From positions 434,001 through 498,000 of the forward strand of contig NZ_SMNA01000004.1 in the NCBI RefSeq assembly GCF_004353825.1: 64,000 nt of DNA. Direction: 5' to 3'. This DNA is from Occultella glacieicola (GTDB lineage: Bacteria > Actinomycetota > Actinomycetes > Actinomycetales > Beutenbergiaceae). The notes under the pieces were generated by a model. That model saw only the letters and a list, made by a program, of their open reading frames with translations, was not told the DNA's origin and made no database searches. Made by a program: the position numbers and the translations under genes. Positions 32,872 to 53,547 of the stretch are shown one piece after another. How positions within the stretch are numbered: position 1 is the first letter of the stretch; each line of letters starts with the position of its first letter.

Positions 32872-32936
32872 TTGACAGGCGCACCTCCGGCATGGAACGC
32901 TGGTGCAAGTAGAAGCATCAGTGAATGAATATGCGT
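32872..32936 (+). promoter_or_regulatory. Promoter plus shared operator-like element, copy 1
   Basis: TTGACA at 32872-32877 inside CGTTGACAG, then 23 bp, then TGGTGCAAGTAGAAGCA (32901-32917) and TGAATGAATATG (32922-32933). The same order and spacing occur upstream of the FGGY kinase at 48402-48465. The element sits before the nucleoside-hydrolase-like gene and split transketolase. Confidence 0.7.
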
Positions 32937-32974
32937 GCGGCTTGTCGGGCCGCCGGACTCGGTCAAGGAGTGCC

Positions 32975-33886
32975 ATGGCACAGCAGGGACAGCGACGCCG
33001 CGCGATCATCAATACCGACGCCAAGAACGAGGCCGACGATCAATACGCGATCGTGCACGCACTGCTGTCACCCACCATCGACGTCCGTGGACTCGTCGCG
33101 GCCCACTTCGGCACCGTGCGGTCCCAGCGCAGCATGGAGGACTCCCGGGCCGAGATCGACCTGATCCTCGACCTGCTCGCCCTGGACCGCGAGGTGCCGG
33201 TCGCCAACGGCGCCGCCCACGCGCTCCCGGACCCGACCACGCCGGTCGACTCCCCGGGTGCCCGGCTGATCATCGACGAGGCCCACGCCGAGACCGAGAG
33301 CACTCTGTATGTCGCGTTCCTCGGGCCGCTGACCGACATGGCCAGCGCGCTGCTGCTCGACCCGAGCATCCAGGACACCGACACCGTGGTGATCTGGATC
33401 GGCGGCCACCACTACTACGACCCGATCTATCCCCTGCAGCCGAAGGTCGAGTTCAACCTCTCCAACGACATCACGGCAGCGAACGTGGTGATGGCGTCGC
33501 GGCTGCCGGTGTGGCAGGTGCCGAGCTCGGTCTACCGGCAGGTGGCCGTCGGCTACGCCGAGCTGGACGCGCGGGTCGCTCCGCAGGGGCGGATCGGCCG
33601 CTATCTCGTGGACCAGCTGCACGAGTGGAACGCGACCCACCACACCGGCCCGATCGAGCACCGCTCGCTCGGCGACTCGCCCGCCGTCGGCCTCATCCTG
33701 AACCCCGGCAGCGCACACTTCTCGTCCCGTCCCGCGCCGGTCTTCGCCGAGGACGGGTCCACGGACCTCAGCCAGGACGGCGCCCGCGAGGTGCTGGTCG
33801 CCGAGTCCTACGACACGCGCTGGCTGCTCGAGGACATGTTCCACAAGATCGCCCGCCACGCCGGCGCCGAGGGCGGCCCACGATGA
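32975..33886 (+). CDS. Nucleoside-hydrolase-like protein
   Basis: 303 residues from ATG 32975, which has AAGGAG 5-10 bp before it; the open frame starts earlier at 32903 without a site. I-I-N-T-D-A-K-N-E-A-D-D-Q-Y-A is the metal/ribose-binding start of the nucleoside hydrolase fold in a variant form (classical is D-T-D-P-G-x-D-D). F-L-G-P-L-T-D-M-A and a late histidine region fit too. It would hydrolyse an N- or O-ribosyl-type bond. As first gene of an operon with a transketolase it may act on an apiosyl or pentosyl conjugate, which is speculation. Confidence 0.72.
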   Translation: MAQQGQRRRAIINTDAKNEADDQYAIVHALLSPTIDVRGLVAAHFGTVRSQRSMEDSRAEIDLILDLLALDREVPVANGAAHALPDPTTPVDSPGARLIIDEAHAETESTLYVAFLGPLTDMASALLLDPSIQDTDTVVIWIGGHHYYDPIYPLQPKVEFNLSNDITAANVVMASRLPVWQVPSSVYRQVAVGYAELDARVAPQGRIGRYLVDQLHEWNATHHTGPIEHRSLGDSPAVGLILNPGSAHFSSRPAPVFAEDGSTDLSQDGAREVLVAESYDTRWLLEDMFHKIARHAGAEGGPR

Positions 33887-34761
33887 TGACCGCACACCTG
33901 CCCCAGGTGAGCATCTGGCGTGAGGTGCGCACCGCCGTCGAGACGGGTTCGCCCGACGAGAGCGCCGCGATCCTGGCCGAGCAGTCCCGGCTGATCCGCC
34001 GGTCCGTGCTCGCCATGATCGGCCGAGCGAGGGCCGGGCATATCGGCGGCGACTTCTCCGTGACCGACATCCTGGCCACCCTCTACTTCGGGGTGCTGCG
34101 CATCGACCCCGCCGATCCGGGCGCGCCGGTCCGGGACCGCTTCATCCTGTCCAAGGGGCACTGCGCCGCGTCCCTGTACTCCACCCTCGCGTTCTCCGGA
34201 TACTTCGACCCCGCCGAGCTGGACACGTTCATGGGACCGCACTCGGCCCTGAACGGACACCCGAACCGCACCAAGGTGCCCGGCGTGGAGACGAACACCG
34301 GGCCACTGGGGCACGGGCTCCCGGTCGCCGTCGGGGAGGCCCTCGGCGCCCGGCTGCTCGGCCACGACACCCGGGTGTTCGTGGTCTGCGGCGACGGGGA
34401 GATGCAGGAGGGCAGCAACTGGGAGGCGCTGATGTCCGCGGCGCACTACCGCCTCGCGAACCTCACGCTGGTGATCGACCGGAACCGCCTGCAGCAGGGG
34501 GCCCGCACCGAGGACACGAACGCCCTGGCCCCGCTGGCGGACAAGCTCGCCGCGTTCGGGTGGCAGGTGCGCGAGGTGGACGGCCACGACCACGCCGCGC
34601 TCCTGCAGGCGTTCGCGCCGGCGGACGGCGCCCGACCGGTGGCCGTGATCGCCAACACCGTCAAGGGCAAGGGCGTCTCCTTCATCGAGGACCGGGTGGA
34701 GTGGCACCACAAGGTGCCCACCCCGGACCAGATCGACCTCGCCCGGAAGGAGTTGGCATGA
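33883..34761 (+). CDS. Transketolase N-terminal (TPP) subunit, apulose-4-phosphate transketolase A candidate
   Basis: 292 residues; ATG overlaps the previous stop (ATGATGA). H-I-G-G-D-F-S, S-K-G-H and L-G-H-G-L contact thiamine diphosphate, and G170-D-G-E-M-Q-E-G ... V-I-D-R-N is the TPP-binding motif. This is the pyrophosphate-binding half of transketolase as a separate chain; the other half is the next gene. Split transketolases of this size are known in D-apiose catabolism (AptA/AptB), where apulose 4-phosphate donates a two-carbon unit to glyceraldehyde 3-phosphate. That role is supported here by gene content (FGGY kinase, isomerase, apiosidase), not by sequence alone. Confidence 0.85.
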   Translation: MMTAHLPQVSIWREVRTAVETGSPDESAAILAEQSRLIRRSVLAMIGRARAGHIGGDFSVTDILATLYFGVLRIDPADPGAPVRDRFILSKGHCAASLYSTLAFSGYFDPAELDTFMGPHSALNGHPNRTKVPGVETNTGPLGHGLPVAVGEALGARLLGHDTRVFVVCGDGEMQEGSNWEALMSAAHYRLANLTLVIDRNRLQQGARTEDTNALAPLADKLAAFGWQVREVDGHDHAALLQAFAPADGARPVAVIANTVKGKGVSFIEDRVEWHHKVPTPDQIDLARKELA

Positions 34762-35711
34762 CCGTCCTCGACACGGCCGCCCCGACCTACGACAACCGCA
34801 CCGCGTTCGCCGAGGAGCTGCTCGAGCTGGCCCGCGCGGACGAGCGGGTGGTCGCCGTCTGCAACGACTCGGTCGGCTCGTCCAATCTCGTGGGCTTCCG
34901 TGAGGAGTTTCCGGACCGGCTCATCAACGTCGGCATCGCCGAGCAGAACCTGGTCGGGGTGGGCGCCGGCCTGGCCGCAGCCGGGTTGATCCCGTTCGTG
35001 TGCGCCGCCGGACCGTTCCTGACCGGACGCTCGCTGGAACAGGTGAAGGCGGACGTCGCCTACAGCGCCCACAACGTGATCCTGTGCGGGATGAGCCCCG
35101 GCATGGCCTACGGCGAGCTCGGCCCCACCCACCACTCCGTCGAGGACCTGTCCTGGCTGCGCGCGCTGCCGGGCCTGGACATCGTGGTCCCCGCGGACCG
35201 GCACCAGACCCGCCAGGCCGTGCGTCAGGCCGTGGCGGACCCGCGCCCCACCTACATCCGGGTCGGTCGGCACAAGGTCCCGGACGTCACCGCGCCCACC
35301 GACCCGCTCGAGCGCGGCCGGTTCCTGCTCGCCCGCGCCGGCAGCGACGTCACCCTGATCGGCACCGGCACCCTGGTCTCCCGGGCGCTCGCGGCCGCGG
35401 ACCTGCTCGCCGCCGACGGCATCGACGCCCGCGTCCTCAACGCCGCCTACATCGCGCCGCTGGACGTCGAGGCGATCCGCGACGCCGCCACGCAGACGCG
35501 GGCGATCGTCACCGCCGAGGAGGCGAACATCTCCGGGGGCCTGGGCGCCGCCGTCGCCCTCACGGTCGCCGCCCAGGGCCGCGGCCCGGTGGTCCGGGCC
35601 CTGGGGCTGTCCGAGTTCGCGCCGACGGGCAGCACCGACCTGCTGCTGGAGCACTTCGGCCTCACCGGGCCCGCGATCGCCGCCGCCGCGCGGGAGGCGC
35701 TCGCCGGGTGA
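34758..35711 (+). CDS. Transketolase C-terminal (pyrimidine-binding) subunit, AptB candidate
   Basis: 317 residues, start overlapping the partner stop (ATGA). V-G-I-A-E-Q-N-L contains the catalytic glutamate that activates the TPP pyrimidine; P-T-H-H-S-V-E-D and P-T-Y-I-R-V-G are substrate and domain features. The C-terminal domain (G-S-D-V-T-L-I-G-T-G-T-L-V) is present. Together with the upstream chain it makes a complete heteromeric transketolase. An alternative is a 1-deoxyxylulose-5-phosphate- or sulfosugar-type relative. Confidence 0.85.
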   Translation: MTVLDTAAPTYDNRTAFAEELLELARADERVVAVCNDSVGSSNLVGFREEFPDRLINVGIAEQNLVGVGAGLAAAGLIPFVCAAGPFLTGRSLEQVKADVAYSAHNVILCGMSPGMAYGELGPTHHSVEDLSWLRALPGLDIVVPADRHQTRQAVRQAVADPRPTYIRVGRHKVPDVTAPTDPLERGRFLLARAGSDVTLIGTGTLVSRALAAADLLAADGIDARVLNAAYIAPLDVEAIRDAATQTRAIVTAEEANISGGLGAAVALTVAAQGRGPVVRALGLSEFAPTGSTDLLLEHFGLTGPAIAAAAREALAG

Positions 35712-35725
35712 TCCGGTGCGCGGGC

Positions 35726-35753: not shown

Positions 35754-36767
35754 TCAGGCCCGCAGCAGTGCCTGCGACTGGGTGACCTCGTGCCGCAGCG
35801 GCTGCCCGGCGACCCACCGTTCCAGCTCGTCGACGACGAGCCGGCCCAGGCGGCGGCGCTCCAGGCCGACGCTGCCGGCGATGTGCCCGGTGAGGGTGAC
35901 GTTCCCGAGCCCGTAGAGCGGTGAGTCGGCGCCCGGCGGGTCCGGCCAGGTGACGTCGAGCACCGCCTGCAGGTCGGGGCGGGAGCCGAGCACCCGCACC
36001 AGGGCGTCCTCGTCCACGAGGGCGCCACGGGCCGTATTGATCAGCGTGGCCCCGGCCGGGAGCCGGCGCAGTTCGTCGTGGCCGATCATCCGGTCGTTGC
36101 GGCCCGGCAGCCAGGGGGCGTGGATGCTCAGGACCTGGCTGGTCTCGAAGAGTTCGGCGAGGGAGTCCAGCCGGTGCACGCCGTGCTCGGCCGCGACGCC
36201 GCCGTCGAGGTAGGGGTCCCAGACGTCGATCCGGTGACCGAAGCGGTGCAGTCCGGTGGCCACCTTGCGCGCGATCGAGCCGAAGCCGACGAGCCCGATC
36301 CTCCGCTCGTAGATGCCGAGGTCGTCCTGGGCGGGCAGGAACGCGTGTGCGGCCCGCAGGTGCGCCGCGCTGCGGTGCGCGCCCTTGAGGGCGAGCACGG
36401 TGGCGGCGACGACGAACTCGGCCACCGGGTCGTTGTTGGCCTCGGCCGCGGAGACCACGGTGATGCCACGGTCCCAGAAGTCGTCGGGGGTGAGGTGCCG
36501 GATCGACCCGGCGCTGTAGAGGACCAGGCGCAGTGACGGCATCGCCGCGAGCAGGTCGGCATCCAGGCTCCGGGTGCCCCACCCGGTGAGCAGCACCTCG
36601 ACGTCGGCGAGGTGGTCGGCGCCGCGCAACTCCTCCGCCCTGGTGTGCACGCCCGCGACGGTCACCAGCGTGTGCAGGCGGGCCAGGTCCTCGGGACCCA
36701 GAACCGCGGCGAGCGCGTCCGCGTTCAGCAGCGCGGCGGCGACCGGCTTCGTTGCGGGGGTCGTCAT
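35754..36767 (-). CDS. D-2-hydroxyacid dehydrogenase family protein
   Basis: 337 residues from ATG 36767. The NAD-binding loop I-G-L-V-G-F-G-S-I-A is near residue 157, then N-T-A-R-G-A-L-V-D (catalytic Arg) and T-G-H-I-A-G-S-V (catalytic His). Family members interconvert 2-keto and 2-hydroxy acids. Last gene of a nine-gene operon, start overlapping the aldolase stop by 4 bp. It may reduce a 2-keto acid from the sugar-acid pathway, or oxidise a hydroxyacid. Confidence 0.85.
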   Translation of the reverse strand: MTTPATKPVAAALLNADALAAVLGPEDLARLHTLVTVAGVHTRAEELRGADHLADVEVLLTGWGTRSLDADLLAAMPSLRLVLYSAGSIRHLTPDDFWDRGITVVSAAEANNDPVAEFVVAATVLALKGAHRSAAHLRAAHAFLPAQDDLGIYERRIGLVGFGSIARKVATGLHRFGHRIDVWDPYLDGGVAAEHGVHRLDSLAELFETSQVLSIHAPWLPGRNDRMIGHDELRRLPAGATLINTARGALVDEDALVRVLGSRPDLQAVLDVTWPDPPGADSPLYGLGNVTLTGHIAGSVGLERRRLGRLVVDELERWVAGQPLRHEVTQSQALLRA

Positions 36768-37729
36768 GGGCGGTCTCCACGCTCGTGCGGGGTCCGGGGA
36801 CCGGCGTTCGTGGCCGCGCCGTCCGCGGGCGGCGCGGCCGCTCCGGCGACGGCGGCGAGCCGGGACAGCGCGGCCGCGCTGAGCTCGGAGTGCGGCGCCC
36901 GGACGCCGCCGGGCTCGATCCCCTGCCAGCGCAGCAGCGCCTTGATGGTCGCGACGTTGTACCGGCCGCCGTGCTCGGCGCGCAGTGCCTCGACCGGGCC
37001 GACGAAGTCGCGGACCAGACCGCGCAGCGCGGTGAGGTCGCCCCCGGTGACGGCCCGGTGCACCGCCAGCGCGATGTCCGGGCGGGCATTGGCGATGCCG
37101 GACGTGAACGACGTGACCCCGAGCGCACCGAAGGAGGCGACGGCGGACTCCGCGAGCCCGTTGATCCAGGCGCACTGCGTGCCTGCCGGCCCGTCGAGCA
37201 GCCGTGCGAGAGTGTGCAGGTCGGTGCGGGCGTACTTGACGCCCACCACGGCGGGCAGCGCGGTGAGGTCGGTGAGGTGGGCAGCCGAGAGCCGTGACGA
37301 GCGCACGTAGAGGACGAGGGGGAGGGCACTGGCCTGCGCGACCTGCCGGTAGAGGTCGGCCAGCCCGTCGCCGTCGCCGAACGGGTCCGCGGGTTCGTGC
37401 ACCATGGCGGCGTGATAGCCCAGTCCCGCGGCAGCCTCGATCTCGCCCACGAGGGTGCCGAGCGAGCCGCAGACCCCGGCGATCAGGGTCGTGGCCGGGG
37501 TCTCGGCGTTCGCCACGGCCCGCAGGACGGCGTGACGCTCGGCCGGTTCGAGTTGTTGCACCTCGGCGGTGTTGCCCAGGGCGGTCAGCACCGGGATCCC
37601 GGCCGTGGCGACGCGGGCCGCGATCTGCGCGACGGTCTCCTCGTCGATGCCTGCTGTGCCGGCCGTGCCGGTGGGGCCGGACCGGTAGGCGGCGACGAGA
37701 ACCGCGGTGACGCCGTCGAGCGCGATCAT
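36764..37729 (-). CDS. DapA-family aldolase/dehydratase
   Basis: 321 residues from ATG 37729. Y141 (L-V-L-Y-V-R) and K165 (V-G-V-K-Y-A) are the catalytic Tyr and Schiff-base Lys. The loop that reads G-S-T-G-E in the family is A-L-G-N-T-A-E here, so it belongs to a divergent subgroup. Adjacent dehydratase-like and dehydrogenase genes suggest cleavage of a 2-keto-3-deoxy sugar acid to pyruvate and a short aldehyde. The tail after residue 290 is Ala/Pro-rich and probably disordered. Coupled by 4-bp overlaps on both sides. Confidence 0.8.
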   Translation of the reverse strand: MIALDGVTAVLVAAYRSGPTGTAGTAGIDEETVAQIAARVATAGIPVLTALGNTAEVQQLEPAERHAVLRAVANAETPATTLIAGVCGSLGTLVGEIEAAAGLGYHAAMVHEPADPFGDGDGLADLYRQVAQASALPLVLYVRSSRLSAAHLTDLTALPAVVGVKYARTDLHTLARLLDGPAGTQCAWINGLAESAVASFGALGVTSFTSGIANARPDIALAVHRAVTGGDLTALRGLVRDFVGPVEALRAEHGGRYNVATIKALLRWQGIEPGGVRAPHSELSAAALSRLAAVAGAAAPPADGAATNAGPRTPHERGDRP

Positions 37730-38535
37730 GCGGCACCGCCGACGCTCGGGTCGATCTCGATCTCGGCGGAGGCCTGGCGGGCCTGGACGCCGAGCCCGCC
37801 GTCGACGGTGATCACCTGACCGGTGAGGTAGGCGGCGTCGGCCGAGGCGAGGAACGCCGCGACGCCCGCGACGTCGGCGCCGGTGCCCGCGTGCCCCAGC
37901 GGGATCGGGGCCACCTCGCGGGCCTGGACGCTCGGATCCAGGGCCTGGAACCGGGTGTTCGAGATGGCGCCGGGGGCGATCGCGTTGACCCGGATGCCGT
38001 GCGGTGCCAGGTCGAGCGCGGCGGCCCGGGTGAACGCCTCGATGGCGCCCTTGCTCGCGTCGTAGGCCGCAGCCGACCGGTGCGCCTTGGTGGCACCGAT
38101 CGAGGAGAGGTTGATCACCGCGGCACCGGGACCCATCCGGCGCGCCGCGGCGTGCGTGGACAGGTAGGTGCCGCGGGCGGCCACGTCGAACTGGCGGTCC
38201 CACTGCTCGAGGGTGAGTTCGAGGAACGGGACCCGGCCGAGCAGCGGCACGGCGGCGTTGTTCACGAGCACGTCGATGCCGCCGAGTTCGGCGTCGACCC
38301 GGGCCAGCATCCGCTCGACCTGGTCGGGATCGGACACGTCCGCCGGGACCGCGGTCGCCGCGTGCCCGGCCTCGACGAGCCGAGCCGCCAGGTCCTCGGC
38401 CTCGCCGGGGACCACCCCGTTGACGGCGACGTGCGCGCCCTCGGCGGCGAACCGCTCCACGATCGCGCGTCCGATGTTTCGCGATCCGCCCGTGACGAGC
38501 ACCCGGGTGCCGTGGAAACGTTGGGCATGGTTCAT
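37726..38535 (-). CDS. SDR-family oxidoreductase
   Basis: 269 residues. The coenzyme loop T-G-G-S-R-N-I-G, the V-N-N-A-A strand, catalytic S-S-I-G and Y-D-A-S-K, and I-T-V-D-G-G near the end. Likely a sugar-1-dehydrogenase or aldonate-type dehydrogenase in the same pathway as the dehydratase and aldolase beside it. 4-bp overlap with both neighbours. Confidence 0.88.
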   Translation of the reverse strand: MNHAQRFHGTRVLVTGGSRNIGRAIVERFAAEGAHVAVNGVVPGEAEDLAARLVEAGHAATAVPADVSDPDQVERMLARVDAELGGIDVLVNNAAVPLLGRVPFLELTLEQWDRQFDVAARGTYLSTHAAARRMGPGAAVINLSSIGATKAHRSAAAYDASKGAIEAFTRAAALDLAPHGIRVNAIAPGAISNTRFQALDPSVQAREVAPIPLGHAGTGADVAGVAAFLASADAAYLTGQVITVDGGLGVQARQASAEIEIDPSVGGAA

Positions 38536-39692
38536 GGCGTGCTCCCGACCCGGTCGATGATGGTGGTGGTGGCGCCCCGGTCCCAGCGCAGCGGCCCGGA
38601 CAGCTCGCGCAGCCGGTCGGGGTCGAGGTGGACGCCGAGGCCGGGGCCGGGCGGAGCCTGGAGGGCGCCGCCGGTGTAGGCCACCGGGTCGACCACGACG
38701 TCGGAGCGGTACAGCAGCGGCCCGACCGGGTCGCTGGCGACCGTGACCGCTGCGGTGGCCACGCCGAAGTGGGCCGCGGCGGCGGTGCCGATCGAGAGTT
38801 CCTGGGTGGTGCCGACGAGGCAGTCCAGGCCCGCGGCCTCGGCGATCGCGGCGACCCGCAGCGCCGGCGTGATGCCGCCGAGCGCGAACAGGCCGACGTT
38901 GAGGACGTCGACGGCGCGCTCGGTCGCCAGCCGGAGCGCGCTCGCCGCGTCGTACACGTGCTCGCTGACCGGTACGAGGGCCCGACGGCGGACCTCGCCG
39001 AGTCCGGCGACGTCACCGGCGAGGGCGGGGGCCTCGACGAGGGCGTACCCGAGGTCGCGGGTGCGTTCGATGAACCGGAGCGCGCCGGTGGCCGGGAGCA
39101 GGTTGGAGAAGTCGAGCGACTTGATCTCGATGCGGTCGCCGAACCGGGTCCGCAGTGCGCGCAGGAACATCTCGTCCAGTTCGAGGTCCCCGCCGACGTA
39201 GACGCGGAACATGGTGAAGCCCTGCGCGAGCCGGTCCGCGACCAGGTCGAGGTTGGCCTCGACATCGTCCCGGCTGCGGGCGCGGAACACCGGGTAGGCC
39301 ACCGGGAGGGCGGCGTGGACGGCGCCGCCGAGCAGGTCGCTGACGCTGCGCCCGCTCAGCTTCCCGCGCAGGTCCCACAGTGCCGTATCGATGCCGCACC
39401 TGATCACGGCGCCCTTGTCGTACAGGGACCCGGCCGAGGGGAAGGCCTCCTCGAGGAGCCGGGCGATCCGGTTCGCGGCCAGGGGGTCGGTCCCGGCGAG
39501 CATCGACTGCAGGCTGCTTGTGAGGTCGCCGAGGTCGGGGTGGAACCTCGGCAGGTGCTGGAAGTCCGACATCTCCCCGAGGCCGACGTGCCCGGCGTCC
39601 GTCTCCAGTTCCACGATGACGTGGCCGCAGACCAGGCCGGTGCTGCGGGCGACGTTCACCGGGGTGAGGCGCACCGCGGTGATCGCGGTCAC
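38532..39692 (-). CDS. Enolase-superfamily enzyme (mandelate racemase/sugar-acid dehydratase type)
   Basis: 386 residues from GTG 39692, overlapping the preceding stop. The metal ligands fit D194 (K-S-L-D-F-S-N), E220 (L-V-E-A-P) and E244 (V-S-E-H-V). The usual K-x-K on the second strand reads R163-V-Y in M-F-R-V-Y-V-G, so the common catalytic lysine is missing. The N-terminal capping domain (residues 1-125) is complete. By context a sugar-acid dehydratase; the altered active site could mean a different reaction or specificity. Confidence 0.82.
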   Translation of the reverse strand: MTAITAVRLTPVNVARSTGLVCGHVIVELETDAGHVGLGEMSDFQHLPRFHPDLGDLTSSLQSMLAGTDPLAANRIARLLEEAFPSAGSLYDKGAVIRCGIDTALWDLRGKLSGRSVSDLLGGAVHAALPVAYPVFRARSRDDVEANLDLVADRLAQGFTMFRVYVGGDLELDEMFLRALRTRFGDRIEIKSLDFSNLLPATGALRFIERTRDLGYALVEAPALAGDVAGLGEVRRRALVPVSEHVYDAASALRLATERAVDVLNVGLFALGGITPALRVAAIAEAAGLDCLVGTTQELSIGTAAAAHFGVATAAVTVASDPVGPLLYRSDVVVDPVAYTGGALQAPPGPGLGVHLDPDRLRELSGPLRWDRGATTTIIDRVGSTP

Positions 39693-41398
39693 CGGCCGAG
39701 CCCCGCGACGGACGTCGCGGCCTCCGGGCGGTGCACCCCGCGGGGGCGGTAGCCGAGCGCCCCGGACAGGCCGAGGAGGTCGGCGAGGAGCCAGATGATG
39801 CTCAGCCACATCTCGGTTCCCTGCAAACCGGGCTCCGCGTCGGAGCGGGCACCGGCGGCCCCGCCCGCGCTGAAGCCGAAGCCCGCGTCGTCGTGCCAGC
39901 GACCAAGGCAGTCGCGCAGCAGCCGCTCGGCGAGCTGGCTCTGCTCGGCGGTCCGGTAGTCGTGGGCGCGGACGAGCCACAGCGGGTGGGCGACGTCCAG
40001 GACGTTGCAGGCGTTCTGCCGTTCGGGGGTGAAGTAACGCGCGTCGCGGGCGTGCCGAAGCACGGTATCGACGACCCGCTCCGCGTGCGGCACCGCGATC
40101 CCGAACTGTGCGAGGGTCCCGCGGGAGGCCCGGTAGAACCCGTTCACCGGTTGCAGCAGGCCCCCCTTGCCGCCCTGCCCCCACATCCCGGTCTGTGGGT
40201 CCGCCCGGAGGATGAGCCATCCGATCAGTGCCTCGAGCTGGCCGGGCGGGGCGGCGGCGTCCTGACGGCGGTTCCAGAGCAGTGCGGTCCCGAGCGCGTC
40301 GACCCAGTGGCCGGCGCGCCATGCCTGCTCCGGCCACGGCAGGCCGTCGAGGAAGGTGACGATGTCGTCGGCGGACAGCCCGGCCACGGCGTGGATCGGC
40401 GTCGGGAACGAGCTGCCGAGGAGGTCGAGCGCGTAGCCGACGCTCAGCACGTGGTAGGCGGCGTCGGGGTCGGTGAGGTCCGGGGGCGCCTGGGGGTCGG
40501 GGCGCCCGAGCTCGCCGACCAGCCCGGTGCGCGGGTCCTGCCAGCCGCGGAGCATCGCGACCGTCTCCTCGCGCGAGCGTTGCGGCGGCGCGTGGCCGGT
40601 GAGCAGGTCGGCGATCTCGACGGCGTCGCACTGGGCCCGCACGGTGGCCGGGCCGCCCGGCTTGTCGGCGAACAGCCCGGTCCTGGCGTCCCAGGCCCGG
40701 GCCAGGATCTGGGCGCCCTGGCTGCGGGCACGGTCGCCGAAGGCACGCAGCACCTGCTCGAGGTCCGGGTCCGGGCGGCCGGCGGGCGCCGGGCCCGGTG
40801 TCATGCCCGGCGCTGCGGTGGCGTCGCTCGGCGCCAGGGCCGGGACCCGCCAGCGCAGCACCCGGGCGGGGTTGCCGGCGACCACAGCGCCGGCGGGTAC
40901 GTCCTTGGTGACGACCGCACCGGCGGCGATCACCGACCGCTCACCGATCCGGACGCCGTCGAGGATCACGCAGTGCGAACCGATCCAGACGTCGTCGCCG
41001 ACCTCGATCCCGCGTTCGCTGATCGGCTGTCGGAACACGTCGGTGTCCGGGTCGGTCATCGTGTGGTTGAAGCCGATGATCGAGGTGTGCGCACCGACCC
41101 GCACCGCGCGGCCGAACCGCACCGGACCGCGGACGATCGAGTAGGCGTTGATCGTGCAGTGGGTGCCCATCTCGATGCTGCCGGTGACCAGGGCACCGGC
41201 GGCGATGTAGCTGCTGCGGCCCATGTCTAGCCGGTCGCACTGGACGGAGGCGAGCTCGGAGACGAAGCACTTCTCAGCGAAGGAGTGCTCGGGGCGGCTC
41301 CCGGCCATCGCGCGTTGCACGTCGAGCTGGTCGGCCTGCTCCGCCTCGTCGGCCTCGGCCCAGAAGCGCCAGGGAGCGAACTCGAGGTCGCGGTTCAT
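39689..41398 (-). CDS. Fusion: hexapeptide acetyltransferase + alpha/alpha-toroid domain
   Basis: 569 residues from ATG 41398. Residues about 50-165 are a left-handed beta-helix O-acetyltransferase (repeats G-S-I-E-M-G-T-H, I-G-F-N-H active-site His, G-D-D-V-W-I-G-S-H-C-V-I-L, then G-A-V-V-T-K-D-V-P-A-G-A and G-N-P-A). A Pro/Ala linker follows at about 170-195. The rest (200-569) is helical with repeated W-x-G/D patterns (Y-H-V-L-S-V-G-Y-A-L, M-W-G-Q-G-G-K-G-G, W-H-D-D-A-G-F-G-F-S), like (alpha/alpha) toroid glycosidases or lyases. The combination suggests editing of acetylated oligosaccharides. Both overlaps are 4 bp. Confidence 0.65.
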   Translation of the reverse strand: MNRDLEFAPWRFWAEADEAEQADQLDVQRAMAGSRPEHSFAEKCFVSELASVQCDRLDMGRSSYIAAGALVTGSIEMGTHCTINAYSIVRGPVRFGRAVRVGAHTSIIGFNHTMTDPDTDVFRQPISERGIEVGDDVWIGSHCVILDGVRIGERSVIAAGAVVTKDVPAGAVVAGNPARVLRWRVPALAPSDATAAPGMTPGPAPAGRPDPDLEQVLRAFGDRARSQGAQILARAWDARTGLFADKPGGPATVRAQCDAVEIADLLTGHAPPQRSREETVAMLRGWQDPRTGLVGELGRPDPQAPPDLTDPDAAYHVLSVGYALDLLGSSFPTPIHAVAGLSADDIVTFLDGLPWPEQAWRAGHWVDALGTALLWNRRQDAAAPPGQLEALIGWLILRADPQTGMWGQGGKGGLLQPVNGFYRASRGTLAQFGIAVPHAERVVDTVLRHARDARYFTPERQNACNVLDVAHPLWLVRAHDYRTAEQSQLAERLLRDCLGRWHDDAGFGFSAGGAAGARSDAEPGLQGTEMWLSIIWLLADLLGLSGALGYRPRGVHRPEAATSVAGLGR

Positions 41399-44145: not shown

Positions 44146-44162
44146 CCTCAACTCCTGATCGA

Positions 44163-45963: not shown

Positions 45964-47159
45964 ACGTCGCCCCACGACTCCTGCGCCGCGGCGACCACGG
46001 CGCTCGCCGCCTCCGCGGGCGTCATCCGGGCGAACCTGACCTCGTCGGCGCTGAGGTCCTGGGCCAGTTCGGTCACCACATCCTGGTTCGGCGGGATCCC
46101 GTTGGTGCCCGCCATCGCCTCGTTGGCGGCGACGTCGTTGGTCAGGAAGTCGACCAGGGCCACGGCGTCCCCGGGGACCTCACTGGCGGCGCTGATCGAC
46201 CAGAACAGCGCAGGGATCAGTTGCATGCCGCGCGCCGCGGCGGTGCTCTCGCCGGGGAAGTAGCCCATCTCCAGGTCGCCGCCGGCAGCCGTGTTGAAGG
46301 AGGCGAACGAGTTCGAGGGGATCATGGCGGAGGCGGTCAGCCCCTGCGCGATCGCGGACTGGTCGGCCGCCGCACCGAGGCTGTCGATCGCCCCACCGGC
46401 CGGGATCGCCCCCATGGCCTCGAACTCGACCCAGAGCTCGTACCAGGGCAGCACGTCCTGCTCGGTGAAGCCGACCTGGCCGTCCTCGGTCCACAGGTCC
46501 AGGCCCTGCTGTCGCAGCCAGGTCCCGAATGTCTGGAGCGCCCCGATCGGCAGGTCACCGCCGTACACCGCGCCCCCGCTGGCCTCGCTCACCTGGGCGC
46601 AGACCCGGCCGTAGTCCTCCCAGCTCCAGGCGGTCAGGTCCGGCGGCTCCACGCCGAACTGGGTGAACACGGCCCGGTCGATCACGATCGACGTCGACGT
46701 GACACCGCCGGCCACCCCGTAGAGCTTGCCGCCCACCAGGCCCGAGTTCAGCAGGGACTCCGGGAGCGCGTCGGTGTTCAGCAGGTCGGCGTGGGTGTTG
46801 ACGTCGAGCAGCACGCCGCGGTCGGCGTACTCGCGCAGCGACTCCCGCTCCATGCGCATGACGTCCGGCGGGCTGCTCGAGGCGAACCGGACCGCGAGCT
46901 TCTGCAGGTACTCCGAGCCCGACTGGTACTCGGTGGAGATGTCCAGGTCGGGGTGCTGCTTGGCGAACAGCGCCACCGCGGCCCGCATCTGCTCGGCGCG
47001 GGTCGCGTCGCCCTTCCAGACGAAGTTGAGGGCTCCGCCGGCCGAGCTCGCCCCGCCGGCGCTGTTCCCACCGAAGCGGCTGCAGCCGGCCAGGCCCACG
47101 CCACCGATGGAGACCGCGCCCAACCCGAGCAGGGCGCGTCGACTCAGGTGCGTTGTCAT
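45960..47159 (-). CDS. ABC sugar importer solute-binding lipoprotein
   Basis: 399 residues from ATG 47159; the frame extends 29 codons upstream, but the leader S-R-R-A-L-L-G-L and lipobox L-A-G-C26 place the start here. Probable Tat lipoprotein with a CUT1 binding-protein fold (L-N-F-V-W-K-G-D start). First gene of the nine-gene operon; the ligand is likely a uronic-acid-containing or acetylated oligosaccharide judged by the genes behind it. Confidence 0.87.
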   Translation of the reverse strand: MTTHLSRRALLGLGAVSIGGVGLAGCSRFGGNSAGGASSAGGALNFVWKGDATRAEQMRAAVALFAKQHPDLDISTEYQSGSEYLQKLAVRFASSSPPDVMRMERESLREYADRGVLLDVNTHADLLNTDALPESLLNSGLVGGKLYGVAGGVTSTSIVIDRAVFTQFGVEPPDLTAWSWEDYGRVCAQVSEASGGAVYGGDLPIGALQTFGTWLRQQGLDLWTEDGQVGFTEQDVLPWYELWVEFEAMGAIPAGGAIDSLGAAADQSAIAQGLTASAMIPSNSFASFNTAAGGDLEMGYFPGESTAAARGMQLIPALFWSISAASEVPGDAVALVDFLTNDVAANEAMAGTNGIPPNQDVVTELAQDLSADEVRFARMTPAEAASAVVAAAQESWGDV

Positions 47160-47178
47160 CGTTGACTCCGTTCGTTTC

Positions 47179-47236
47179 GTGTTCGAGTAGCATGACCAAA
47201 CCGCACACTCGCCCGAAGTGCAAACAACTCGAACAC
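47179..47236. promoter_or_regulatory. Inverted-repeat operator pair between operon and hybrid regulator
   Basis: GTGTTCGAGT (47179-47188) and ACTCGAACAC (47227-47236) are exact 10-bp inverted repeats with a 38-bp spacer, in the 118-bp divergent gap between the nine-gene operon and the DeoR-LacI regulator. TTCG-rich half-sites are typical of DeoR-type DNA-binding domains. Confidence 0.65.
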
Positions 47237-47277
47237 ACTCAAACATCGAAGAGTGTCGTGAGCCCGAAGGGGTGCCG

Positions 47278-48372
47278 ATGTCAGCCGACGGTCACGGTCA
47301 GCTCGCCCGCGAGCGTCAGGAACGATTCCTGCGCCTCCTCCGAGCCAAGGGGTCGGTCACCGTCGGCGCCCTGGCGGCGGAGTTCGACGTCTCCGAGATG
47401 ACCGTGCGCCGAGACCTCAATGCCCTGGCGGCCCGCGGCCTCGCGGTCCGGGTGCACGGCGGGGCGACCGTGCCGGACGCGCCGGGTCCGGACGCGACGG
47501 CAAGCCCGTCCGATCCTCGGGAACCCCACCACCTGACGATCGGGCTCGTGCTCCCCGGCGCCGAGTACTACTGGTCGCCGGTGATCGCCGGCGCCCGGGC
47601 GGCCGCGGCGCGGGCCAACGTGCGGCTGATCCTGCGGATCACCTCCTACGAGGCGCGCGAGGACCGTCACCAGGTGCAGGCACTGCTCGCCTCCGCGCGG
47701 GTGGACGGCCTGATCATCGCCCCGAACCTCGACCGCGAGGGCGGTGGTGACCTGGTCACCTGGCTCGATGCGCTACCGATCCCGGTGGTGCTCGTCGAGC
47801 GCCGCCCACCGGGGGTGCCGGTGCGCAGTCTGGAGTGGGTGGCGACCGACCATGCCGCCGGCGGGGTGCTGGCGGTCCAGCACCTGCTCGCTCACGGGCA
47901 CCGGAGGATCGCCGTGTGCACCGGGCCGACCGCCACCACCGAGGACCTGATCCTGGGCTGGCAGAGCGAGCTTCGCACGCGCGGGCTCGATCCGGCGGAA
48001 CAGTTCTCGATGCGCGTCGACCTCACCGAACGCGGTCGGCAGGAGGCCGCCGCCGAACTCGTGGACCGCTGCGCCGAGACGGGGACGACGGCGGTCATCG
48101 TGCACCCGGACATCCTCACGATCAGCGTGGTGCAGCGGTGCCTGGACGTCGGCATCTCGATCCCGGAGGACCTGGCGATCGTGGGCTACGACGACGAGGT
48201 CGCCGCGCTGATCGATCCGCCGGTGAGTTCCGTGATGCCGCTCAAGCAGGACGTCGGCCGGATGGCCGTGGAACTCATCCACGCCCGCCTGCTGGAGGGC
48301 GATCGCCGGCCGCCGCACCGGCTCACCGTGATGCCGGTCCTGAACGTGCGCAGGTCGAGTACCGGACGCTGA
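47278..48372 (+). CDS. Hybrid regulator: DeoR-type HTH + LacI-type sugar-binding domain
   Basis: 364 residues from ATG 47278; upstream extension to 47218 is unlikely because it runs through the operator. Residues 10-65 are a DeoR HTH (V-G-A-L-A-A-E-F-D-V-S-E-M-T-V-R-R-D, then V-R-V-H-G-G-A). From about residue 90 the effector domain is periplasmic-binding-like (I-G-L-V-L-P-G-A ... V-V-L-V-E-R-R ... A-T-D-H-A-A-G-G ... A-I-V-G-Y-D-D), as in LacI proteins. So a DeoR DNA-binding head drives a LacI-type sensor. It probably controls the divergent nine-gene operon in response to its transported sugar. Confidence 0.88.
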   Translation: MSADGHGQLARERQERFLRLLRAKGSVTVGALAAEFDVSEMTVRRDLNALAARGLAVRVHGGATVPDAPGPDATASPSDPREPHHLTIGLVLPGAEYYWSPVIAGARAAAARANVRLILRITSYEAREDRHQVQALLASARVDGLIIAPNLDREGGGDLVTWLDALPIPVVLVERRPPGVPVRSLEWVATDHAAGGVLAVQHLLAHGHRRIAVCTGPTATTEDLILGWQSELRTRGLDPAEQFSMRVDLTERGRQEAAAELVDRCAETGTTAVIVHPDILTISVVQRCLDVGISIPEDLAIVGYDDEVAALIDPPVSSVMPLKQDVGRMAVELIHARLLEGDRRPPHRLTVMPVLNVRRSSTGR

Positions 48373-48401
48373 ACTGCCACCGTGGCGCGGGTGCCGGCTC
48401 G

Positions 48402-48465
48402 TTGACAGCACGAGGGGCGTGCGGCACAGTGGTGCAAGCACAAGCACGTATGAATATTTATGATC
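48402..48465 (+). promoter_or_regulatory. Promoter plus shared operator-like element, copy 2
   Basis: TTGACA at 48402-48407 in the same CGTTGACAG context as copy 1, then 22 bp, then TGGTGCAAGCACAAGCA (48430-48446) and TGAATATTTATG (48451-48462). Lies upstream of the FGGY kinase gene. Confidence 0.7.
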
Positions 48466-48493: not shown

Positions 48494-50050
48494 ATGGTCG
48501 GGCAGGGCGTGATCGTGGCCGTCGACCAGGGCACGTCCGCGACGAAGGCGATCGCGCTCGACGGCGCCGGCCGGGTGGTCGCGTCCGTCACCCGGGCACT
48601 GGGCCAGTCGCACCCGCGGCCGGGCTGGGTGGAACAGGACGCCACCGCGATCCTGGACGGGGTGCGGGCGGCGGTCGCCGACGTGCTCGCCCGGGTCGAC
48701 GCGCCGGTCCTCGGCCTCGGCCTGAGCAGCCAGCGCGAATCGGCGCTGCTGTGGGACACCCGCAGCGGTGAGCCGCTGGGCCCGGTGCTGGGCTGGCAGG
48801 ACCGGCGCACCTCCGCCGCGGCCGCACGCCTGGCAGCCCACGATGCCGAGGTGCGCGAGCGCAGCGGGCTGCCCATCGACCCGATGTTCTCCGCGCTCAA
48901 GCTCGGCTGGCTGCTCGACGAGGTGGATCCGGACCGCTCCCGCAGCGCGCGCGGCGAGATCGCCGCCGGCACCGTGGACTCCTGGCTCGTCCACGCCCTG
49001 ACCGGCGAGCACCGGATCGAGATCGGCAACGCCAGCCGCACCCAGCTGCTGAACCTGGCCACCGGAACCTGGGACGAGCGGCTCCTGGACCTCTTCGGCG
49101 TGCCGGCGAACGTGCTGCCCCGGGTGGTCGCCTCCACCGGGGCGTCCCTGCCGATCGCGGAGTTCGGGGGGTTGCGGATCCACGCCGTGCTCGGCGACTC
49201 CCACGCGGCCCTGTACGCCCACGGGGTGCGCGAGCCCGGCGCGGTGAAGGTCACCTACGGCACCGGGTCCTCGGTGATGGGCCTGCTCACCGGCGAGCGC
49301 AGGGGGATCGCCGGCGGTGCGGCCGCGGGGGCGGGCAGTGCCGCGGACCCTGCCGACGCGGTGCGCGCAGACTCCGAGGGGCCGATCCCGGCCGGTCTCG
49401 TCGGCACGATCGCCTGGCAGCTCGGCGACGCGCCGCACCAGCTCGCGTTCGAGGGCAACATCCTGGCCACCGGTGCCACGATCGCCTGGCTGTCCCGCCT
49501 CCTCGGCCGCGCCGTGCCCGAGCTCGCGGCCCTGGCCCGGACCGCCGGCGCCGATCACGGCGTCCACCTGGTACCCGCGTTCGCCGGGCTCGGCGCGCCC
49601 TGGTGGGACCCGGGTGCGCGGGCGGTGCTCTCCGGATTCGACCTCGGTACCGACGCCGCCGTGCTCGCCCGCGCGGGGGCCGAGTCGATCGCGCACCAGG
49701 TGGAGGACGTGCTCGCCGCCGCGGACGCCGCCGGCCCGGTCACCGACGTGCTCGCCGACGGTGGGCCGTCCGCGGACGACTGGCTGATGCAGCTCCAGGC
49801 CGACCTGAGCGGCCGGCGGGTGCACCGGGGCTCCCGCGAGTCCCTGTCCGCCTGCGGCGCCGGCCTGCTCGCCGGCGACGCCCTCGGCCTGAGCCTCCCC
49901 GCTGACTCGGACTCGCACCCGGCCATGACCACCTTCACACCGGCGCTCCCGGCCGGCCGTGCCGGCGAGCGCCGCGAGGCGTGGCGGCGAGCCGTCCACC
50001 TGACCCGGGCGGCGCCGTCGGGCATCGACACAGACCCCATCACCACCTGA
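48494..50050 (+). CDS. FGGY-family carbohydrate kinase, apulose kinase candidate
   Basis: 518 residues. D-Q-G-T-S-A-T-K is the phosphate-1 motif; G-W-V-E-Q-D and the L-G-W-Q-D-R-R-T segment resemble glycerol kinase. V-T-Y-G-T-G-S-S is phosphate-2, and [14 protein letters not shown] and C-G-A-G-L-L-A-G close the ATP site. The sequence is closer to glycerol/apulose-type kinases than to xylulokinase. First gene of a run with a TIM-barrel isomerase and a SorC regulator. With the shared promoter element and the apiosidase nearby it fits D-apulose kinase; glycerol or another ketose is the alternative. Confidence 0.85.
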
Positions 50051-50058: not shown

Positions 50059-51039
50059 ATGAGTGACCAACGCTACGGCGCGGGAATCTGGCACTTCGCC
50101 ACCTACGTGGACCGCTATGCCACCGACGGCTACGGCGAGCCGCGCACCATCCTCGACGCGATCGAGCTCGCCGGGCGGGTCCGGGACCTGTCCGTGGTGG
50201 ACCTGAACTACCCGTTCTTCGGCGGCGAGTTCAGCAACGACGAGGTCGGCGCCGCGCTGCGCACGGCCGGGCTCGAGGTCATCGGGATCACGCCCGAGAT
50301 CTACACCCGGGTGTTCGCCAAGGGGTCGTTCACGAACCCCGACCCGGGCGTGCGGCGGCTCACCCACGAGCTCGTCACCGAGGCCGCGGGCGTGGTGCGC
50401 CACTTCGGCGCCGACTACGTGAAGCTCTGGCCGGGGCAGGACGGCTGGGACTACCCGTTCCAGGTGGACCACGGGGCGCTCTGGAAGGCCTCGCTCGACG
50501 GCGTCGGTGCGCTCGCGAGCGAGAACCCGGATCTGAAGTTCGTGATCGAGTACAAGCCGCGTGAGCCGCGGGTGCACATGAGCTTCGACTCGGTATCGCG
50601 GACCCTGCTCGGCATCGAGCGGATCGGGCTGCCGAACGTGGGCATCCTGCTCGACTTCGGGCACGCGCTGTTCGGCGGCGAGTCCCCGGCCGACTCCGCG
50701 CAGCTGGCGATCGACTACGGGCGCCTGTTCGGCATGGACGTCAACGACAACCTGCGCGGCTGGGACGACGACATGATCGCCGGCAGCGTGCACCCGATCG
50801 AGCTGTTCGAGTTCTTCTACACGCTGCGCCGCAACAACTGGGAGGGCGTGTGGCAGCTCGACCAGTTCCCGTTCCGGGAGGACTCTGTGGAGGCCGCGAA
50901 CCTGGCGATCGACTTCCTCAAGGCGGTCGAGCGCGGACTGGACAAGCTGGACGTCGCCGGCGTGGTCGAGGCGCAGTCGCGGCATGACTCGGTGACGGCG
51001 CTGCGGCTCGTGCAGCAGGCCCTGTTCACGTCCTACTGA
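50059..51039 (+). CDS. TIM-barrel sugar isomerase/epimerase, apiose isomerase candidate
   Basis: 326 residues from ATG 50059 with GGAG 7 bp before. Xylose-isomerase-like barrel: [23 protein letters not shown] (metal Glu), L-L-D-F-G-H (metal Asp/His), D-V-N-D-N and Q-L-D-Q-F-P-F supply the conserved metal site. It starts 8 bp after the kinase stop, so substrate of one is likely product of the other: an aldose-ketose isomerisation before phosphorylation. D-apiose to D-apulose is the best fit with context. Confidence 0.82.
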
Positions 51040-51045
51040 GCACCG

Positions 51046-52050
51046 ATGGTCGCGGGCAGTAGTGTTCACGCCATGTCTTCCGGACCGGGCGGCGCGGGAC
51101 GCGTCTCGAGCGATCGGATGTCCCTGCTCGTCAAGATCGCGCGGATGTACCACGAGCAGGGGCTGCGCCAGCCGGAGATCGCCGAACGGCTGCACATCTC
51201 GCAGTCGCGGGTCTCCCGGTTCCTGAAGGAGGCCGTCTCGCTCGGGATCGTGCGCACCGTGGTGGTGCCACCGCCGGGGGTGTTCTCCGAGCTGGAGGAG
51301 GCCGTCCGGGAGCAGTACGGGCTCGCCGATGTGGTCGTGGCCGGGCCGTCCACCGACGATGACGCAGCGGTGCTCGCCGCGATCGGCGGGGCCGGCGCCG
51401 CGTACCTGGAGACCACCCTGATCGGGGCGGAACGGGTCGGCATCTCGTCCTGGTCCGCATCCCTGCTGGCCGTGGTCGAGGCGATGTCCCCGCGCGCCAC
51501 CCGTTCCGCCGAGGTGGTGGTGCAGGTGCTTGGCGGCGTCGGGGACCCGCGGGTGCAGGTCCAGGCCACCCGGCTCACCGACCGGCTCGCGCAGGTCACC
51601 GGTGGAACGGGCCTGTACTTCCCGGCACCCGGGGTGGTCTCCTCGCCGACCGTGCGGGACGCGCTCCTGGCCGACCCCTACATCTCCGACGTGGCCGCCG
51701 CCTGGTCCTCGCTCAGCGTGGTGCTGGTCGGCATCGGATCCGTGCAGCCGTCGCCGTTGCTGGTCTCCTCCGGCAACGCCCTGCCGGAGGCCGACCTGGA
51801 CCTGCTGCGCGCGGCCGGGGCGGTGGGCGACGTCTGCCTGCGGTTCTTCGACTCCGACGGCGCCCTGGTCCCGACCGACCTGCACGAACGGGTCCTGGGC
51901 ATCAGCGCCGAGGCCCTGCGGGCCATCCCCCGCAAGATCGGCGTGGCCGGCGGGCCGCGCAAGTTCGAGGCGATCCGAGCCGCGCTCCGGGGCGGCTGGA
52001 TCGACGTCCTGATCACCGACAGCTTCACCGCCCGCCGCCTCGTCGACTGA
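51046..52050 (+). CDS. SorC/DeoR-type transcriptional regulator
   Basis: 334 residues from ATG 51046; starts at 51073 or 51118 would still keep the HTH. The HTH I-A-R-M-Y-H-E-Q-G-L-R-Q-P-E-I-A-E-R-L-H and the following S-R-V-S-R-F-L-K-E-A are the SorC signature. The sensor domain has the G-I-S-S-W-S-A-S and G-G-V-G-D-P-R loops. Last gene of the kinase-isomerase run, 6 bp after the isomerase. Likely binds the shared element at 48430 and 32901 and responds to a phosphorylated sugar. Confidence 0.87.
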   Translation: MVAGSSVHAMSSGPGGAGRVSSDRMSLLVKIARMYHEQGLRQPEIAERLHISQSRVSRFLKEAVSLGIVRTVVVPPPGVFSELEEAVREQYGLADVVVAGPSTDDDAAVLAAIGGAGAAYLETTLIGAERVGISSWSASLLAVVEAMSPRATRSAEVVVQVLGGVGDPRVQVQATRLTDRLAQVTGGTGLYFPAPGVVSSPTVRDALLADPYISDVAAAWSSLSVVLVGIGSVQPSPLLVSSGNALPEADLDLLRAAGAVGDVCLRFFDSDGALVPTDLHERVLGISAEALRAIPRKIGVAGGPRKFEAIRAALRGGWIDVLITDSFTARRLVD

Positions 52051-52200
52051 GGCGCCGAGTCCTGCCGCAGCACCCGATCATCCCGTCCCCGGCGCGCCCG
52101 CAAGCCACTCACGACCGGCCTGCCGGACCGGCGTCGCCGACGCGCCGAGACAAGCCCTGCCCAGCCAAACCCCTGCCCAGCCAACCCTTAGGAGTTCCAC

Positions 52201-53547
52201 ATGCTGCTCGACAAGCCGTGGCAACACGGGCGGATCGAGACCTCCGCCGACGGTCACCACTTCCAGCACGAGGACGGCACGCCGTTCTTCTGGCAGGCCG
52301 ACACGGTCTGGCTGCTGCTGACCCGGCTGTCCCTGGCCGAGGCGGAGGAGTACTTCGCCGACCGGCACGCCAAGGGATTCAACGTCGCCCAGGTGATGGT
52401 GATCCACGGCCCGACCAGCGCCACGCTGGAGGGGCGCCTGCCGTTCCTCGACGAGGACCTGACCCGGCCGGACACCCGCCCGGCCGATCCGGGGGAAGGA
52501 CTCGACGGGCCCTCCTTCTGGGACCACCTCGAGAAGGTGCTCGAGCTGGCCGCCCGGTGGGGGATCTATCTGGGCCTCGTTCCGGTCTGGGGGAGCAACC
52601 TCCAGCACGGCGGCCACTCGGACGAGGCCGTTGCCGCCTACGGCACCTGGCTCGCGCGCCGCTACCGGCACCACCCGAACATCGTCTGGCTCAACGGTGG
52701 CGACCTGCGCGGGGACACCCGGATGCCGGCCTGGCAGGGCCTCGGGGCGGCACTGCGGAAGAACGACCCCACGCACCTGATCACGTTCCACCCGTTCGGG
52801 CGGTGCCAGTCCTCCACCTGGTTCCACACCGAGCCCTGGCTGGACTTCAACATGTTCCAGTCCGGTCACCGCGACTACGCGCAGGTCTGGGACGACAGCC
52901 CGGCCACCTGGAAGGGCCCCGACAACTGGCGCCACGTCGAACACGACTACCAGCGCTACCCGGCCCGGCCCACGGTGGACGGCGAGCCCGGCTACGAGGC
53001 GATCCCGCGCGGGCTGCACGACCCGGTGCACGGCTACTGGGGACACGACGACTCCCGGCGCTTCGCCTACTGGGCCGTGTTCGCGGGAGCGGCCGGCCAC
53101 ACCTACGGCCACAACGCCGTCATCCAGGTTCACAAGCCGGGGTATTCGCCCGCGTACGCCGTCACCATGGACTGGCGGGAGGGCCTGGTCGCGCCGGGCT
53201 CGAAGGACCTGCAGCACCTGAAGAACCTGCTGCTGTCCTACCCGTACTTCGAGCGCATCCCCGACCAGACGGTCGTCGTGGGCGAGCCGGGCATCCGGGA
53301 GGACCGGCTCGTCGTCACCCGAGGCGAGGGCTACCTGTTCGCCTACCGGTTCACGGGCCGACCGTTCCAGCTCCGGGGCGAGGTCCTGCCGGGGGAGGAG
53401 GTGCGGATGCGCTGGATGGATCCGCTGACCGGTGGCTTCGTCGGGGAGGCGCTGGTGCCGAACCGGGGGGTGCTCAGCTTCACGCCGCCGGTCGGAGCGA
53501 ACGGGAACACGGACATGGTGCTGGTGCTCGATGCCCCCGGCTCCTGA
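52201..53547 (+). CDS. Glycoside hydrolase, GH140 apiosidase type (DUF4038)
   Basis: 448 residues. F-F-W-Q-A-D-T-V-W-L-L near residue 30, V-M-V-I-H-G, V-W-L-N-G-G-D168-L-R-G-D and D-G-E262-P-G-Y-E are signature motifs of the DUF4038/GH140 family, whose characterised member removes D-apiose from rhamnogalacturonan II. D168 and E262 are the candidate catalytic pair. The C-terminal 100 residues form the usual beta-sandwich (collagen-binding-like). No signal peptide, so it would act on imported oligosaccharides. It follows the SorC gene by 150 bp. Confidence 0.85.
   Translation: MLLDKPWQHGRIETSADGHHFQHEDGTPFFWQADTVWLLLTRLSLAEAEEYFADRHAKGFNVAQVMVIHGPTSATLEGRLPFLDEDLTRPDTRPADPGEGLDGPSFWDHLEKVLELAARWGIYLGLVPVWGSNLQHGGHSDEAVAAYGTWLARRYRHHPNIVWLNGGDLRGDTRMPAWQGLGAALRKNDPTHLITFHPFGRCQSSTWFHTEPWLDFNMFQSGHRDYAQVWDDSPATWKGPDNWRHVEHDYQRYPARPTVDGEPGYEAIPRGLHDPVHGYWGHDDSRRFAYWAVFAGAAGHTYGHNAVIQVHKPGYSPAYAVTMDWREGLVAPGSKDLQHLKNLLLSYPYFERIPDQTVVVGEPGIREDRLVVTRGEGYLFAYRFTGRPFQLRGEVLPGEEVRMRWMDPLTGGFVGEALVPNRGVLSFTPPVGANGNTDMVLVLDAPGS

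Follow-up and report, generated by a model that had tools for sequence, protein, structure and literature searches.

Why should a gene of the nucleoside hydrolase fold open an operon that otherwise encodes a split transketolase, and why should the promoter of this operon recur before a second operon 12.8 kb away? These questions are raised by a 64,000-nt stretch of the genome of Occultella glacieicola (5.34 Mb in total), which is called the window here and gives all coordinates their numbering. Operon 1 encodes the nucleoside-hydrolase-fold protein (NH) and the N and C subunits of the transketolase (TK-N and TK-C), and operon 2 encodes an FGGY kinase, an isomerase and a SorC-type regulator. 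ATGA overlaps are found at both the NH/TK-N and the TK-N/TK-C junctions, the isomerase gene starts 8 bases after the kinase gene and the SorC gene 6 bases after the isomerase gene, so that each half looks like an operon. The original prediction, drawn from the letters of the DNA, had read the two as one SorC-run regulon for D-apiose. The genes it named are all present (PF01156 NH-like protein, transketolase N and C halves, FGGY kinase, AP_endonuc_2 isomerase, PF04198 regulator and PF13204 apiosidase-like protein), and its extent stands as far as 53547, with the GH42 gene at 53629-55686 left out. From the genes and operators described below, the two operons and a third one outside the window very probably constitute a single regulon for D-apiose under the SorC-type regulator at 51046-52050, and it is likely that this regulon also comprises NH as a predicted apiosidase.

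The pathway enzymes were compared with known D-apiose enzymes. The isomerase matches the PDB entry 3ktc with 468 bits, whereas the runner-up, a xylose isomerase, scores 65 bits. The PDB's own label for 3ktc is 'Xylose isomerase'; we take the entry to be ApsI of Pectobacterium. TK-N, TK-C and the kinase are 44, 38 and 37% identical to the products of aptA, aptB and aplK of Escherichia coli SE15, respectively, and the best PDB match of TK-N is the split-chain transketolase 6yak. In a tree of 37 kinase rows, the kinases of apiose loci fall outside a clade (100/98) that unites E. coli GlpK with seven GlpK-like rows. A glycerol-kinase identity of the kinase was thus rejected on the tree and a xylose-isomerase identity of the isomerase on the scores. 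The GH140-type protein matches PF13204 with 338 bits, 3kzs/5msy with 398 bits and 8t9w ('Apiosidase') with 234 bits; presumably 5msy is BT1012, and GH140 the family of 3kzs/5msy and 8t9w. A profile search of genome contigs with the isomerase alignment gave 364 relatives, the best 80 of which were kept as loci of 4-21 kb each. TK-N, TK-C and kinase genes are all found near the isomerase gene in 68 of these 80 loci; TK-N is missing in nine, some of which are short contigs. An ApsI-type isomerase, an FGGY kinase and an AptA/AptB-like split transketolase support the D-apiose pathway that had been proposed. The names aplK, aptA and aptB are those of the E. coli cluster, and strains of E. coli and E. 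fergusonii carrying it, not SE15 itself, grow on D-apiose according to the accessible part of the source (PMC13001218). The E. coli cluster possesses two oxidoreductase (SDR) genes instead of apsI.

Several variants of the module were also observed. Four of the nine loci without TK-N (L062, L064, L093 and L104) have isomerase homologues (77-78%) with no transketolase or kinase match within the 21-kb locus. Six others from alphaproteobacterial metagenome-assembled or single-cell genomes (L063, L069, L103, L107, L108 and L111, with L069 titled Pelagibacteraceae) combine an isomerase of 74-76% identity and a split transketolase with a weak kinase match (24-27%). A sphingomonad-type isomerase module with a GH140-type gene (42-47% to that of the window) and no SorC or NH match is present in L066, L068, L082, L087, L092, L098 and L110. 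In G100 (L121:10081-13817), two kinase genes and a second, partial TK-C match stand in tandem in the apiose module.

The promoters of the two operons share CGTTGACAG followed by TGGTGCAAG, as originally noticed. Since TGGTGCAAG starts at 32901 and 48430, the gaps between the two are 22 and 21 bases; the one-base difference stands, and the given spacing of 22-23 bases was slightly off. The arrangement CGTTGACAG-N18-26-TGGTGCAAG was counted twice in the window and never in 100 shuffles, and the pattern TGGTGCAAGNANAAGCAN3-6TGAAT has two copies in the whole genome, both here, against none in the reversed control, so a chance match of two promoters was ruled out. The promoter comparison across loci revealed that the best-conserved part is the near palindrome TGAATRNWTATGCA, and TGGTGCAAG, which belongs to the weaker upstream half, was dismissed as the main operator. 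The operator is resolved as two 14-bp half-operators 18 bp apart, O2 being TGAATRNWTATGCA and O1 (TGCAAG...) a weaker palindrome-like site exactly 18 bp upstream. Among 39 sites, the mean O1 match is 5.05 of 7 fixed letters at offset 18 and 1.2-3.2 at 19 other offsets, which is a strong description and not an independent test, since the sites include close relatives and the 7-letter half-site pattern was chosen after seeing them.

The operator goes with the SorC gene. O2 was found with at most one mismatch in 16 of the 22 loci with a SorC gene versus 2 of the 58 without, while the reversed-sequence control gave 0/22 and 1/58, and this association supports the proposal that the regulon is SorC-run. 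The Rhizobiaceae SorC loci L054, L065 and L100 and E. coli SE15, all left out when the O2 pattern was drawn up, fit O2 with 0 or 1 mismatch at the best site. Upstream of aptA in SE15 stands TGAATAAAGAGTCA-ttgt-TGAATATATATTCA, and TGAATATATATTCA is a perfect O2 palindrome. The operator thus recurs before SorC-holding apiose operons in other actinobacteria, Rhizobiaceae and E. coli SE15. The regulator of the window matches PF04198 at 206.8 bits, with weak matches to helix-turn-helix models, and is 40% identical to the SE15 'sugar-binding transcriptional regulator' encoded between the apiose genes. The SorC proteins DeoR and CggR of Bacillus subtilis are described as tetramers on paired half-operators in the accessible part of PMC11229326. 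As further observations on the operator, the SE15 cluster (L031) has, besides the tandem operator upstream of aptA, one lone O2-like site between the kinase and SorC genes (16038-16051 and 14678-14691), and in Occultella gossypii a perfect O2 (L032:770-783) lies before a second, distant GH140-like gene (26% to that of the window) and an ABC transporter.

In the O. glacieicola genome itself, paired half-operators are found at both operons and, as an inverted copy, at a transporter. This third O2, TGAATGGATATGCG at C18:505732-505745, lies 7.7 kb to the right of the window, and its O1 overlaps the TTGACA of an operon for a solute-binding protein, two permeases and an aldo-keto reductase. Orthologues of these genes (62-81%) stand between the NH gene and the apiose operon in two Pseudactinotalea genomes (L163 and L164), and L163 has the same operator arrangement at the same place as the third operon. 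We take the third operon to be the predicted importer of the regulon; the transporter is presumably of the SBP_bac_1 type. Other O2 sites with one mismatch in this genome are at C12:23646 and C22:205841.

Gene order in relatives tells how the two halves came to be separated. In O. gossypii (G003; locus L032) the order is GH140-like, ABC transporter, NH, TK-N, TK-C, kinase, isomerase and SorC, and O2 sites precede both the first gene and TK-N. G022 has NH, TK-N, TK-C, kinase, isomerase, SorC and GH42, with a TetR-type gene between the isomerase and SorC genes. Both halves are contiguous in L017/L032 and L018. The Occultella relative G001 has its halves split by the same intervening operon as in the window; in O. 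aeris (G002) they are on different contigs, and the intervening operon is beside NH-TK. As the halves are contiguous in O. gossypii and G022, where the intervening operon is not between them, the split is a rearrangement of one unit, in agreement with the proposal that a single regulon had been divided around another operon.

What NH contributes was approached through its genomic partners. Two subfamilies were distinguished, NH-A, which includes NH, and NH-B with the motif DNDFxGDPDD/G. In an order survey of 396 genomes (E up to 1e-40 for NH-A/B), NH-A/B genes were present in 33, the isomerase in 25 and both in 16; outside the family of the window the numbers are 21, 12 and 6 (p 1e-5). The NH gene lies within 20 kb of the isomerase gene in 13 of the 25 isomerase genomes, where 0.03 would be expected. 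In a class sample (394 genomes, E up to 1e-45), NH was found in four genomes and the isomerase near it in two, namely that of the window (17 kb apart) and G184 (adjacent). The arrangements differ: NH is first in the TK operon in the window type, directly after the isomerase in L050 and L055, first in an isomerase operon with O2 in G184, flanking an ABC transporter in L021, and divergent from the TK operon in L034, L038, L040 and L075. Nine of 18 distinct NH genes have O2 (at most two mismatches) within 160 bp upstream, three of them sharing it with a divergent TK operon.

NH is not confined to the isomerase pathway, as ten of the 20 NH-A genomes lack the isomerase, and these genomes led us to a link with the D-apionate lactonase ApnL. 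Among 12 NH loci compared, a GntR regulator was found in five, an SDR in five, an RpiB-like protein in four, a 600-residue protein in four, and TIM-like, AP_endonuc_2 and PGDH_C genes in three each; PGDH_C is also present in L115. The PGDH_C, AP_endonuc_2, TIM and RpiB genes are presumably those named ApnO, OiaC, LerI and DerI. For the 600-residue protein, of which four were scanned (L117, L154, L155 and L157), the sole NCBIfam match at E 0.001 is ApnL (NF049900). In L154 the NH, ApnL-like and SDR frames overlap by 4 bases. Of 80 genomes searched, an ApnL-like protein is encoded in 12 of 23 NH-positive genomes and in none of the 57 others (Fisher p 2e-8); the gene is at most 10.3 kb from NH in nine of these 12, and the isomerase is present in none of them. 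Altogether, 28 of the 33 NH-positive genomes carry the isomerase or the ApnL-like marker. When the rows of the NH-A tree are labelled by the marker of the genome, near or not, four changes are needed (bootstrap 4-5), and well-supported branches force two. Besides this, NH-A and NH-B genes were seen in tandem near ABC permease genes in L155, L158 and L159, as though each subfamily handled its own part or linkage of a common substrate.

The isomerase and apionate routes have nothing in common except D-apiose and the steps before it. For a protein linked to both routes, the simplest role is to supply apiose. NH matches PF01156 with 78 bits (gathering score 34.2), and its AlphaFold model (pLDDT 88.5) resembles PDB nucleoside hydrolases with TM 0.70-0.79 among the matches listed, at about 20% identity to the solved members. 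Nucleoside hydrolases are furanosidases for a cis-diol sugar, and apiofuranose also has a cis-diol. With this fold, no signal peptide seen by eye at the NH start and a binding-protein-type transporter in the regulon, NH is predicted to be a cytoplasmic beta-D-apiofuranosidase freeing apiose from imported apiosides, a role that we favour on balance from its sequence and context. Slightly better than even, in our judgement, is the broader proposal that NH-A and NH-B make up a new class of such enzymes feeding both D-apiose routes, in which the cis-diol site of N-ribohydrolases would be reused and the fold turned into an O-glycosidase.

An ordinary ribonucleoside hydrolase caught in the apiose regulon and salvaging ribose would fit the fold and the residues D15, D21, E159, N161 and D234, which are invariant among 12 NH relatives and proper to nucleoside hydrolases; hhalign places the DD and EFN motifs of NH on those of RihA, and five of the 33 NH-positive genomes (G023, G532, G543, G661 and G684) have neither apiose marker. 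We consider it unlikely. NH is linked to two unrelated apiose pathways, the operator precedes half of the NH genes in differing arrangements, and the canonical DxDPGxDD motif is replaced, the N-terminal catalytic loop being two residues longer (NTDAKNEADD versus CDPGHDD) with the Asp pair kept. Moreover, NH-A and NH-B stand apart from RihA/RihB in the tree (100/100), where NH-B is one clade (100/100) and NH-A is unresolved as a clade.

The D-apiose regulon with NH as apiosidase would then work as follows. A SorC tetramer on O1 and O2, just downstream of the -35 element, would repress transcription until a metabolite of apiose releases it; our guess at this effector is a phosphosugar, for instance apulose 4-phosphate. 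The third operon, under the same operator, encodes the aldo-keto reductase and the ABC transporter, which would import apiosides. The apiosides may be cleaved in the cytoplasm by NH and also by the GH140-type and GH42 enzymes. D-Apiose would be converted to apulose by the isomerase, phosphorylated by the kinase and split by the two-subunit transketolase.

Several points weigh against this interpretation. A single clade of all apiose kinases is weakly supported (38/14). Many of the loci in which the O1 and O2 patterns were counted had also served to define them, and O2 at one mismatch is missing from six of the 22 SorC loci. NH is accessory, being found in 10 of the 80 isomerase loci, none of them titled Rhizobium or Sphingomonas, and for nine of 18 NH genes no operator lies close by. 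To the isomerase-free NH-A genomes and the five marker-free genomes must be added G013, G667 and G685, where NH is either distant from the ApnL-like gene or on another contig. The ApnL-like proteins score 123-227 bits, below the curated cut-off of 750, and the second pathway is not proven to act on apiose. We also know of no O-glycosidase with the nucleoside hydrolase fold.

It is very improbable that the isomerase, kinase and transketolase serve another branched or ketose sugar, such as hamamelose or a tetrulose, in place of apiose. The nearest solved structures of the kinase are glycerol kinases, identity to the E. coli proteins is just 37-44% and an isomerase is absent from the E. coli cluster; against these stand the score of the isomerase to 3ktc, taken as ApsI of Pectobacterium, the occurrence of all four genes in most loci, the GH140-type protein in the operon, and the SorC homologue and operator common to E. 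coli SE15. Least probable by a little is that the shared element serves another regulator, for which the DeoR-HTH/LacI-type gene adjoining operon 2 offers itself while the SorC role is read from sequence: the element goes with the SorC gene in other phyla, it has the paired form bound by SorC proteins in the accessible part of PMC11229326, and the LacI-type gene, which diverges from the intervening operon, is closely matched (94%) in just one of the 80 loci, L033, and weakly in six more.

Table 1. Coordinates of the apiose operons, their operators and neighbouring genes in the window.
Feature	Position	Strand	Basis or remark
CGTTGACAG with -35-like TTGACA, operon 1	32870..32878	+	
O1 half-operator TGCAAGTAGAAGCA, operon 1	32904..32917	+	18 bp from O2
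O2 half-operator TGAATGAATATGCG, operon 1	32922..32935	+	
NH, nucleoside-hydrolase-fold protein, subfamily NH-A (NTDxKNEADDQ motif)	32975..33886	+	PF01156, predicted structure, linkage
AptA-like split transketolase N subunit (TK-N)	33883..34761	+	best PDB match 6yak (split-chain transketolase)
AptB-like split transketolase C subunit (TK-C)	34758..35711	+	identity to SE15 aptB
Intervening operon: ABC transporter, hexapeptide-repeat protein, MR_MLE (enolase superfamily), SDR, 2-hydroxyacid dehydrogenase	35754..47246	-	
Hybrid DeoR-HTH/LacI-type regulator	47218..48372		adjoins operon 2, divergent to intervening operon
CGTTGACAG with -35-like TTGACA, operon 2	48400..48408	+	
O1 half-operator TGCAAGCACAAGCA, operon 2	48433..48446	+	
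O2 half-operator TGAATATTTATGAT, operon 2	48451..48464	+	2 mismatches versus consensus
FGGY kinase, predicted D-apulose kinase	48494..50050	+	domain, SE15 homology, tree
ApsI-type D-apiose isomerase (predicted), xylose-isomerase-like TIM barrel, AP_endonuc_2	50059..51039	+	3ktc match
SorC/DeoR-subfamily regulator (PF04198), predicted regulon repressor	51046..52050	+	
GH140-type apiosidase-like protein (PF13204 + PF12904)	52201..53547	+	
GH42 family glycosidase	53629..55686	+	near SorC gene also in G001, G002, G022

The intervening operon is probably outside the apiose regulon; no Pfam match was obtained for its region 41395-44952 and the neighbouring frames.

Literature searches, with most subscription papers outside their reach, found nothing for apiose with apulose, for an apiose transketolase/kinase operon, or linking a nucleoside hydrolase with apiose or apiosidase, and no on-topic paper was recognised for apiose with SorC or for 3KTC. 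We know of few apiosidase families. The NH prediction is the part worth testing, as NH is a concrete and easily expressed candidate for freeing the apiose bound in flavonoid and aroma glycosides; apiose is part of more than 1,200 plant metabolites according to the accessible part of PMC10602602. The shared operator may serve as a recognition mark for SorC-run apiose regulons from actinobacteria to E. coli.

The pathway itself is already known: the route by D-apiose isomerase, apulose kinase and AptAB transketolase was reportedly described by Carter et al. in 2018, and the Occultella genes resemble it in the ApsI-type isomerase, FGGY kinase, split transketolase, SorC-type regulator and operator. 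Added here are the form that it takes in actinobacteria, an operator common to Occultella and E. coli, the putative importer operon and the NH link. Compared with the SE15 cluster, with its two SDR genes and no isomerase, the Occultella genes are spread over at least three operons and include SBP_bac_1-type importer, GH140-type, GH42 and NH-fold genes that are absent from the SE15 cluster. The operator resembles those of DeoR and CggR in its paired half-operators near the promoter, and the TTGAACA..TTCAA of DeoR, as given in the accessible part of PMC11229326, resembles TGAATA..TATTCA; it differs from them in its 18-bp spacing and its sequence. The protein at 52201-53547 belongs by sequence with the GH140 apiosidases (3kzs/5msy and 8t9w), to which NH is unrelated. 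NH shares fold and core residues with the inosine-uridine nucleoside hydrolases (PF01156; RihA/RihB), and is set apart by its low identity, longer catalytic loop and apiose genes as partners. Finally, the neighbours of NH in other genomes (ApnL-like, SDR and PGDH_C/KARI-like genes) recall the oxidative D-apiose pathway, whose enzymes are listed in the accessible part of PMC11747546; the genes of that pathway are not in the window and the ApnL matches fall below the curated cut-off.

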